Shown here in pieces: positions 1 to 13,000 of a DNA stretch of 64,000 nucleotides. Below the pieces are notes generated by a model. The model made no database searches. It had not been told where the DNA came from and was given only the letters and a program-made list of their open reading frames with translations. The position numbers were made by a program, and so were the translations under genes. Source of the DNA: Patiria pectinifera (lineage: Eukaryota; Echinodermata; Asteroidea; Valvatida; Asterinidae). The DNA is taken from NCBI GenBank assembly GCA_029964075.1, contig CM057144.1:4115281-4179280 (forward strand). The letters run 5' to 3'. Every line of letters begins with the position of its first letter. Within the stretch, counting starts at the first letter, position 1.

Positions 1-1021
1 CTCATCATCTCTGCCAGTCTGCTGAATGTCAGCATCACCGATCTCCCTCCTGAAACGCCTGTTGTAATCACCTTCAACCTACACCAAGTAAGAATCTACT
101 TTTGCCGTTGGAGTTCTCAGAGGACCAGACTAGTGTCCTCTTTGTGTCTGTCTGACTGACTGACTTTTGTCGCTTGTGATTCAGAAAGCTACGTAGGCTG
201 GTAAAGAGAACCGGGCAGTGTTATCATATAGGATTCCCCCTTAGGCATATGAATGAGACTTGTGTAGACCAGATGGCTGAACAGAGTTCCAGGGATTATC
301 CATTCTGAATCAGGAGTAATATATATATATATATATATATATATATATATATATATATATATATATATATATATATATATATATATATATATATATATAT
401 ATATATATATATATATATATATATATATATATATATATATATATATATATATATATATATATATTTTAATACAAGCACCTGAACAAGTCCCCGTAGTCTG
501 ATTATGGGTGATGGATTATGGCTGATCTCCAGACCCCGTCATTGCTTTATTCATCTCAATCGATGGCCTAAGCCGCACTGCATTTAAAAAAGAACCTTTT
601 CGAAGTGTTTCTTGTGCTGGAAGGAATGTGTATTAAAGGGGTTAGCTTGCTTTGGTCCGAAATGGCCAACTTTGGCCCTTCTTTGTTCAAAGTGATTGCA
701 TACATATTTCACCTGGAACCTGTGAGTGAACTTAGTGACATATCGCATATTTGTATACGCGCGTCTGCTACATTGCCGCACGACAAACTGCATGCATGTG
801 TATGCCTTTAGCTATAGATTTGTAAGTGATATAGTGTTTTTTGTTTTTAGGAATTCAGCCAAAATGAAAACTCCTATCAAACAGAGACCTGTGTCTTCTG
901 GGATTTCACTCTTCGTGACGGCATCGGTGATTGGTCAACAGAAGGCTGCAGGAAAGGTCAGCCGACCAGTGGGAGAATAGTTTGCCTGTGTGACCACGCC
1001 ACTAATTTTGCTTTACTTGTG
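1..1021 (+). CDS. Gene 1 cassette 0 (partial): end of GAIN plus GPS exon
   Basis: Exon 1-87 is the 3' part of a GAIN subdomain-B exon, open from base 1, ending LHQ just before donor GTAAGA. Exon 851-1021 (171 nt, 57 codons, phase 0 at both ends) is a GPS exon starting EFSQNENSY. It carries [17 protein letters not shown] and the cleavage-site triplet H-A-T followed by NFALLV. The upstream part of this cassette lies outside the window. Confidence 0.85.
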
Positions 1022-10000: not shown

Positions 10001-13000
10001 AAAACACTTGAAAAAATCAATATTGATAATATAACCGACATACAGATCCTTGTCATTTGATTGGTGGAACTCACATCACGTGACATTTGTTATTGCTTCC
10101 ATTCACGCCGCCGCTTAAAAAGTACTATCCGCCCATTGGAATGGGAAATACTATTCAACAGTTAGGATCATGACGCGGTATTTGTGTGCAAATGCATGCT
10201 GGTGTGTGCGTTCAGCGTTGCGCGTAGCGCGTATTGTTCCAAAGAGCAAGCGCTACAGCGTTGGATTCAAACATTTTCGTGAAGGGGTGGTTTCAAAGAG
10301 AGAAATAACTGTTCCTCCAGTTTTGTATTGAAACAAAAGTTCAAATATATCAAATGACAAGGATCTATTTGTCAGTTATATAAAACAAATATTGAGTGTC
10401 TTTAAATTGTGAAATGGGAGGAATATTATCGTTCGGTCAAATCTGGACTTATCCATTTCACGAGGCGAAGCCTCGTGAAATGGAAAAGTCCAGATTTTAC
10501 CTTGCGATAATATTCCTCCCATTCCACGCTGAGCCAGTCAATATTTGTATAATATTAAAAGGTAAAACAACTAGTGTGTTTTCTGTAATGACATGATTTC
10601 TTATCTAGTTAGTATACGCTGAATGCCTCGCGATTACTGTAGTGAAGGTGTTTGTAATGTTTGCTATTCCCAGCGGGCCAGCCTATCTCCCTCTTTATAA
10701 CTTAATGACTGACGCAATGACTGTCACTTGGGTGTTGGGCAGTGCTATCATATAGGATTACCCGTAATCAATGAGTTAAATCCGTTCCGTTGTGTACACA
10801 ATTGCATGAAAAGACTTCCAGCGAATAGTCATTCTGAATCAGTTGGACAGAGTGCATGGGGACCATTTTTTGCCATGCCTTTTTGTAGCGAAAACAATTT
10901 GTTTCAGTTGGTCAATCTGCATTCATTATTTTTTTTAACTTTTCACCATGAAGGCAGTGCTGTACCCATCAGCTTCGTCATGTATGAGAACAGTAATCTC
11001 TTCCACTCCCAGCAAGTAGACAACGCCTCGTCAACGGAGTTTCCCACCGCCATCGCCAGTCGTGTCATCTCTGCCAGTGTACCAAATGTCAGCATCAGTG
11101 ATCTCCCAAATGACAGTCCTGTTGTCACTGCTTTTCGCCTAAACCCTGTAAGATGTAGTCCTGTCTTACAATTATGTATTCCTGTCACATAATTTTTTTT
11201 CTTTTCTTTATTTCTTCCTAGTGTGATGTCTAGTTAAATAAGCTTAAACGTTGGTTCATAATTCACGCGGATACCAATGCAAAACTAATTTTGGATCACG
11301 AAACAGTCGCTGCAAAATTTGCTGGAGTTGACATGTGCTCAACCTTTTGTGAATTTGCAGCGCGCAAATTCGCGCACGATGTCACAAATTCAGATTCGCG
11401 AATGAAGTGGTCTTAATTGTGGTTATTTTAAAAACTGCAGGTGTTGACTCCAACTGAGAATACCGAGCAGACGGAGACCTGCGTCTTCTGGGATTTCAGT
11501 CGACGTGACGGCATCGGTGATTGGTCACCTGACGGTTGCAGGAAAGGTCAACCGACCAATGGGAGAACAGTATGCCTGTGCGATCACGCCACCAATTTTG
11601 CCGTTCTTGTGGTGAGTCTTACCGAATAAGGGGAGAAATAGTTTTGATATTTTAGCTAGATTTCATGGATAGTAATATTTGAGAAGATGATTTCAACATT
11701 TCTGGTATATCTAAAAAAGAAAAGACCATTTTACAGAGCAATCATCAAGTCCAAAATATCTCATCTTATTTTCCTGTCTTTTTGCAGAATATCCATGGCA
11801 AGAAGTTCACCAGTTTGGCTCTGGATATTATCAGCAAAGCTGGATGTATTGTCTCCATCGTGGCCTTAGTCATCACCATTGTCATATACTCGTCGTTCAG
11901 GTAATTTTTAAGGAATACTTTAATTAATTGATTAGGTATTCAGCCAGTCACAAGTCAATGCAATGAAAAGTACTCGATATATTTCAGACATTTGATTATA
12001 AAAATAAAATAGCAAACGACCGAGCGAGCTTGCAACTGAGTGAAATTATGTCCCAAGGCTAACTCTGAAACTGTTCGGGTCTAGCTTGACTATAGGCAAT
12101 CCTAGCTTAAGCCGCCCTGAGATAAACCTGCAATTTCTTTGCGCCTTTCTTCAAGGTCCTGTTGAGGATTGAATCGTTTGGCCTTATGATGATTTGAATA
12201 TTTCAGGTCTATCCAGTCAGTGAACAGTTCGCAGCACTTCTATTTATTTTTTTAAAAATATTGCTTGTTGGACGATACAGGTCGTTGAGATCGAAGACTC
12301 CCAGCCGCATCCTCATTAGCTTCTCCTTGTCTCTGCTGTGTCTTTACCTGGTCTTCGTGGCAGGCATCGAGCAGACGTCCTCCCAGGAGGGTTGCATCTT
12401 GGTAGCTGTCTTGATGCACTACTTCACGCTGACGTCCATGGCCTGGATGGGTGTGGAGGCTACTAACTTGTACCTCAAGCTGGTCAGGGTCTTCAATTCT
12501 GATGTGCAGCATTTTATGATCAAGGCGTCTGTCGTTGCTTGGGGTAGGTGATCAGAGATGGACTATGGACCGATCCAGTAAGCACCACCCCATGGTGTTC
12601 TGACCAATCACTGCCGTGATTTATGTCCCATGTGTTTGCACTAAAGTCCGACATGCGTACACGCACGTACAGCCGCGTGACCGTAGAGCTATATTAAATA
12701 TAGCTCTATGAGCGTGACATTGGAGAGGAGCACGTTTTAATTTGCCCAAGTGCGCACTGGGCGGAGCTTACTGGATCGGTCCAATGTTGAGTCACATTGT
12801 TCAAGTCTGAGTCACTTCATTTGATGCTGATCGAGTCCTGAGTCACTAAGTTAACGTCCAAGTCCAGGACTCGAGTCAGCTGATTCAATCTGAGTAACAA
12901 GTTACATGATTGGAGTCCGAGTCACAAATCACTTGGTGCAAGTTTGAGTCCAAGTTTCACCACTAGGTTTGATTCCAAGTCTGAGACACAAGTTTCATGG

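Follow-up and report, generated by a model that had tools for sequence, protein, structure and literature searches.

The sea star Patiria pectinifera carries on contig CM057144.1 (hereafter C16) an adhesion G protein-coupled receptor (GPCR) gene, gene 1, in which six complete GAIN/GPS cassettes (K1–K6) and one orphan GPS exon stand upstream of a single seven-transmembrane (7TM) domain. Its downstream part opens the window, the 64,000-nucleotide stretch C16:4115281-4179280 analysed here, and the full series was recovered by translated searches of the genome (613.5 Mb, 1020 contigs) and from the flanks of the window. The original prediction had claimed at least four open, splice-matched cassettes ahead of one 7TM domain, which is borne out and extended to six. 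On balance, we lean towards reading gene 1 as an adhesion GPCR with six constitutively spliced serial GAINs in one protein, in which K6 would be the agonist-bearing GAIN and K1–K5 would form a stack in the stalk. Serial inclusion of the cassettes in one protein is likely, and at the level of sequence both the cassette array and the way it arose have good support.

Gene 1 appears to start near C16:4096749, 18.5 kb left of the window, where a start exon, recognised by its similarity to that of the neighbouring gene 2, encodes a hydrophobic stretch and putative signal peptide. It is followed by WSC (8e-18) and Sushi (7.5e-06) domains, three ectodomain blocks, K1–K6 and the 7TM exons. Every cassette has four exons, EX1, EX2, EX3 and GPS, of which the first two are called here the front half and the last two the back half; distal (D) and proximal (P) types are named after the two cassettes of the two-cassette relatives described below. 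To the left of the window, C16:4106523-4115280 contains K1, K2 and the beginning of K3, and positions 1-11611 of the window hold five GPS exons, namely those of the complete K4, K5 and K6, that of K3, which is cut by the window start, and the orphan second GPS exon of K4. In window coordinates, with all gene 1 features on the plus strand, K3 contributes the last part of EX3 (1-87; the exon's first 107 bases, from C16:4115174 on, precede the window) and a distal-type GPS exon with the triad HAT (851-1021). K4 comprises EX1 (1887-2030), where the GAIN starts, EX2 (2438-2810), a distal-type EX3 (3172-3365) and the GPS exon (4048-4218), and its orphan second GPS exon (4940-5110) belongs to an in-frame local tandem duplication of 892 bp. 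K5 runs through EX1 (5943-6086), EX2 (6520-6892), a distal-type EX3 (7252-7445) and GPS (8144-8314), and K6 through EX1 (8996-9139), EX2 (9580-9952), a proximal-type EX3 (10954-11147) and the membrane-proximal GPS exon (11441-11611), the end of which, the Stachel, is joined in phase 0 to the exon for transmembrane helix (TM) 1 (11788-11900). The remaining 7TM exons encode TM2-TM3 (12281-12543), TM4 (13971-14037) and TM5-TM7 with the C-tail and stop (15234-15792).

All 24 cassette exons of gene 1 have AG/GT borders, and none shows a stop, a frameshift or a lost splice site. The exon phases recur in each cassette as 0-0, 0-1, 1-0 and 0-0, therefore each cassette is frame-neutral, and the 24 cassette exons joined with the four TM exons (28 exons) form one open reading frame. 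In Pfam, the joined protein of 2101 residues, beginning at K1, contains six GPS stretches (3e-91) and one 7tm_2 domain (3.3e-39), together with a few further weak matches, none with a stretch passing alone. GPS scores of K4, K5, K6 and the D cassette of gene 2, each tested singly, were 56.5-60.9 bits against a cut-off of 22.5, far enough above it that the cassettes are not chance matches. Searches for the TM1, TM2-3 and TM5-7 exons gave no match between the gene 1 cassettes, in agreement with the earlier claim that each upstream GPS leads into another GAIN instead of a membrane helix. A tandem row of separate genes is ruled out on the same ground, unlike the same-strand GPS pair on contig C21, where a 7TM lies between the two GPS exons, i.e. 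two genes are present.

Serial GAINs recur in four other genes on C16. Gene 2, on the minus strand within the window, has a D cassette at 36743-38805 (exons 38805-38653, 38495-38132, 37650-37472 and 36913-36743) and a P cassette at 33598-36182 (exons 36182-36039, 35438-35072, 34588-34395 and 33768-33598), with TM1 then at 33451. Gene 3, also on the minus strand and partly in the window, shows the end of its P cassette and its 7TM at 58562-63967 (EX3 63967-63774, GPS 63209-63039), and its D cassette lies right of the window at C16:4191882-4195443. Inverted copies of these genes, with two cassettes each, are found at C16:3.92-3.98 Mb as genes 4 and 5, forming the near-copy pairs G2/G5 and G3/G4. 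A genome-wide GPS search, in which 150 of 184 candidates were scored and all 150 matched, yielded 12 same-strand GPS pairs within 15 kb (spacing being taken on contigs from this search, with the remaining contigs judged by eye): ten belong to the C16 family, one is the C21 pair and one lies at C4:6599858/6613875. The single-cassette relatives are six genes, four on contig C15 and two at C16:2.26-2.30 Mb. They share with the serial genes the four-exon GAIN, the TM1 and TM2-3 exons and two pre-GAIN ectodomain blocks, and TM5-7 could be recognised in two of the C15 genes as well as both C16 ones; of the other two C15 stretches, one is cut inside it and one before it. They differ in having one cassette each; their triad is HAT in every C15 gene, HTA in one C16 gene (S1) and HTT in the other (S2). 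The first two ectodomain blocks occur in all 11 family genes and the third in seven of the 11, the C15 stretches being too short to show it. Located after Sushi and ahead of the first GAIN, the three blocks match nothing in Pfam; in gene 2 they lie at window positions 40319-40582, 41019-41312 and 45184-45420, and gene 1 has equivalents.

The origin of the array can be read from the two halves of its cassettes. In the front-half tree, K1 groups with the D cassettes (100/100) and K2–K6 group with the P cassettes (100/100), and in the back-half tree K1–K5 group with D (100/99) and K6 with P (95/97), so that K1 is D/D, K2–K5 are P/D chimeras and K6 is P/P. The EX2-EX3 introns of K2–K5 are chimeric as well: their first ~237 bases match the K6 intron in two pieces (87.7-95.2%), and their last 128 bases match the K1 intron (95.3-96.1%). 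The switch falls at intron positions 232-239 in all four, at window 3044-3048 in K4, with proximal type on the left and distal type on the right, and at the same breakpoint in K5 (7124-7128). A switch shared by four of four introns argues that the unit, of which there are now five copies, arose when the two introns of a two-cassette gene underwent a single crossing over. As read from the sequence, an ancestral single-GAIN receptor gained a second GAIN, unequal crossing over that paired the EX2-EX3 introns of the two cassettes then enlarged gene 1, and tandem duplication of the unit of distal EX3, distal GPS, proximal EX1 and proximal EX2 followed. Descent of the D/D, P/D and P/P cassettes from a two-GAIN ancestor by such a crossing over is documented at the level of sequence. 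The chimeras also show that two different parents can each supply one half of a GAIN fold, with the junction inside a single intron.

Divergence between the cassettes suggests that the two-cassette state has been kept for a long time. The D and P cassettes of gene 2 differ by a synonymous divergence (dS) of 1.1, so the two-GAIN state is old, with a ratio of nonsynonymous (dN) to synonymous change (omega) of 0.28. All 12 between-gene D-D or P-P comparisons, excluding the near-copy pairs, gave omega of 0.26-0.54 with dS above dN (P <= 0.006). Among the near-copy pairs, G3_D-G4_D (0.36) and G3_P-G4_P (0.12) were significant, and G2_D-G5_D (1.83 on 7 changes) and G2_P-G5_P (0.42) were non-significant. 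Internal cassettes of gene 1 compared with genes 2 and 3 gave omega of 0.28-0.64, significant at 0.05 in 15 of 16 cases; only the comparison of the K3 back half with G2_D fell short (P 0.16). Back halves within the array showed omega of 0.23-0.58 in the eight of ten pairs with both rates above zero, four of the ten being significant and all four involving K5. Variable columns amounted to 45 of 882 in the array exons versus 321 of 1780 in the introns, the latter an upper estimate since some intron stretches are poorly aligned, and indels numbered 0 versus 47, where 6.6 to 23 exon indels would be expected at the intron rate. The array exons thus appear protected from decay, with selection and gene conversion inseparable inside the array.

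Several observations weigh against this picture of six maintained and constitutively included GAINs. EX1 of K2 and of K4 has the weaker donor gttagt, and the doubled GPS exon of K4 is not needed by a tidy constitutive model. Both would fit cassettes that are alternative or skipped, giving isoforms with one to six GAINs or partial GAINs, as would the phases, since every cassette is 0-0 and EX1 and GPS exons are each 0-0, permitting any subset of cassettes. We nevertheless regard such isoforms as unlikely, since K2–K5 encode almost the same protein and choice among them would yield little diversity; for the same reason the ectodomain swapping offered by the original prediction is disfavoured, and swapping of diverse ectodomains is ruled out. 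Within-array front halves have omega of 0.62-2.4 in the nine defined pairs, none of ten being significant, and variable exon sites spread evenly over the codon positions (14, 16 and 15), so that amino-acid selection after the duplications is unsupported, and gene conversion could be the cause of the low exon divergence. The omega near 1 among recent front halves would also suit a gene in which only K6 is used, most transcripts omitting the upstream exons as duplicates in decay, but this seems quite improbable given 24 of 24 intact exons, the lack of exon indels noted above, and the two-cassette state kept in other genes with a D/P omega of 0.28. Distal GAINs have omega above that of proximal ones, through lower dS and not higher dN. 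As for the breakpoint, the K4 intron finds no match in the D intron of gene 2 and only 39 bases at 82% in its P intron, so it is uninformative there and the breakpoint rests on gene 1's own introns. In S1, the HTA triad is without a Ser/Thr nucleophile, so that cleavage is dispensable in the wider family. Finally, the exact copy number is uncertain in so heterozygous an assembly.

The last point bears on a further explanation, in which haplotype or repeat errors of the assembly have inflated a true gene with three or four GAINs. The block from the K1 GPS to the K2 GPS is 99.4% alike to that from the K3 GPS to the K4 GPS over 3987 bp (shift 6452), and the stretch after it has 96.9% identity across 3205 bp, which makes the final expansion step either recent or an assembly repeat. 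Genes 2 and 3 recur as an inverted copy 0.2 Mb apart, C16:3920001-3982212 against C16:4141059-4206594 (from window position 25779 past its right end), ~65 kb with two adhesion GPCR genes, in which the long blocks outside satellite are 89-98% identical, mostly 94-98%; this may be a real palindromic duplication or a second haplotype placed on the same chromosome. Heterozygosity is 5.16% and the assembly spans 615 Mb versus a k-mer estimate of 426 Mb, as stated in the accessible part of PMC10511450. On the other side, that part also gives duplicated BUSCOs of only 2.1% (and a Nanopore read N50 of 21 kb), and a protein search with EX2, in which all 102 candidates were scored, revealed outside C16 no copy more than 67% identical. 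Neither this EX2 search nor another one, which scored 40 of 5009 candidates, turned up a second haplotype of gene 1. Between the first two units, a part of 1.6 kb reaches just 84.6% identity, more divergence than alleles would show, which rules out allele stacking as the whole explanation. The assembled count is six, with a floor of three reasoned from collapsing all pairs at least 95% alike. We hold an inflated count to be less probable than not. The concern over an allele artefact, raised beforehand as what could undo the idea, thus retains its force for the exact number, through the 99.4% blocks, the inverted copies and the heterozygosity, and loses it for the existence of serial cassettes, because two-cassette relatives make an artefact of the whole serial idea unlikely.

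If six GAINs are included, whether they are cut matters for what they do. According to excerpts of PMC13062082, from which our determinants were taken, the cleavage motif H-X-S/T is insufficient alone, and a Phe at S10.49 and a conserved Gly are further determinants. In the five C16 genes, the triad H-A-T, the Gly-Cys and the Phe at S10.49 (which corresponds to F803 of latrophilin and, by our count, precedes the His by 33 residues) are present in each of the 14 cassettes, which leaves the chain of non-covalent links put forward in the original prediction a candidate reading. In a genome-wide sample of 36 other GPS exons, HLT occurred in 19, HAT in 14, and HTT, HTS and HGN in one each; HAT in place of HLT is thus common here, and its cleavability is of interest in itself. 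Moving a GAIN away from the endoplasmic reticulum membrane is reported to lower cleavage: with a spacer between ectodomain and membrane, cleavage of E2 dropped from 45% to 10%, and other receptors behaved similarly (PMC12488864, in part). A gradient is therefore expected, with K6 cut best and distal copies perhaps poorly. At the extreme all GAINs would be included with the distal ones uncut as rigid spacers, for which the insufficiency of the motif would also speak. We treat such spacers as a tentative alternative, since none of the 14 cassettes has lost the cleavage determinants, whereas catalytic residues that were not needed should in part have disappeared over a dS of 1.1.

Under the preferred reading, the cassettes would be spliced in constitutively to give one protein with all six GAINs, in which K6 would act as an ordinary GAIN, presenting its tethered agonist to the 7TM, and K1–K5 would lengthen the stalk and, where self-cut, could add non-covalent joints between the adhesive head and K6. 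A break at one of K1–K5 would shed the head and leave the agonist beside the 7TM unexposed, so that stacking should lower the activating share of pulls unless the distal joints are uncut or stronger. With six equal cut links, a simple weakest-link argument would have one in six openings expose the K6 agonist, and several cut links would favour shedding over signalling. That all six GAINs sit in one receptor, most of them self-cut, as a multi-link mechanical fuse in which only K6 activates the 7TM, the others shed the head, and ongoing unequal crossing over sets the copy number, is a speculative and rather unlikely extension. If true, it would split two GAIN jobs that are coupled in known receptors, the force-bearing non-covalent joint and the presentation of a tethered agonist, since five of the six copies have no 7TM beside them. 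The natural series of one, two and six GAINs in one genome also offers material for relating GAIN position to cleavage and force response.

Repeats occur in and around these genes. A satellite of ~29 copies of 322-base units lies between genes 1 and 2 (window 17379-26713) and is also found beside gene 5. Within gene 1, the EX3-GPS intron of K3 has a long AT dinucleotide run (319-464), the following GPS-EX1 intron holds a ~300-base dispersed repeat (1152-1456), copies of which elsewhere in the genome make up 34 of the 42 matches listed in the search that scored 40 of 5009 candidates, and the EX2-EX3 intron of K6 contains a long inverted-repeat insertion (10020-10560, by eye) with the look of a small transposon, part of which recurs near 8800-8925. 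Open frames of LEPSDLGLR repeats on both strands (29950-30393 and 31156-31881) are likely a minisatellite in a gene 2 intron.

Gene 1 is made of a known domain in a known receptor class at an unusual copy number. Its seven-helix domain is of class B type and covers positions 3-250 of the 250 in the PF00002 profile (3.3e-39). In line with the GAIN fold, a nine-cassette profile can be aligned along its full length, positions 1-292, with ADGRG6 chain 6v55_A (2.8e-15) and along its last 135 positions with ADGRL3. The Pfam GAIN model exceeds its cut-off only in D/D cassettes, namely gene 2 D and, as the best stretch of gene 1, K1; it stays below cut-off in K6 and is unlisted for K4 and K5. One GAIN per receptor, a usual but non-defining feature, does not hold here, with six in gene 1 and two in four other genes. 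Title and abstract openings in the open-access literature gave nothing relevant on more than one GAIN or GPS per protein, an absence that is weak evidence. Domain databases appear to list predicted proteins with at least two GPS domains. Serial GAINs go unmentioned in the accessible parts of PMC12716839, PMC2246102, PMC4302439 and PMC8584163, and likewise in that of a 2026 consortium review, which puts the GAIN just outside the membrane part (PMC13197933).

PKD1-like proteins are described, in the accessible part of PMC11697300, as the sole other GAIN family, and polycystin-1 and the sea urchin REJ proteins share with gene 1 a GAIN-type self-cleaving domain, there outside the 7TM class (PMC11697300 and PMC13197933, in part). 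The difference is that gene 1 ends in a class B 7TM: only 7tm_2 follows its last GPS, which does not place it among the polycystin-1/REJ proteins, no search having been made for an upstream REJ domain. Polycystin-1/REJ proteins have 11 TM segments with PLAT/LH2 and polycystin membrane domains. With canonical adhesion GPCRs (class B2; ADGRG6, ADGRL3), gene 1 has in common a GAIN/GPS directly before TM1, the 7tm_2 domain, an adhesive ectodomain, an H-X-T triad and a T-x-F-A-x-L-V Stachel, but it differs from them in carrying six GAIN/GPS in series (two in its relatives) instead of one, and in the triad HAT instead of HLT.

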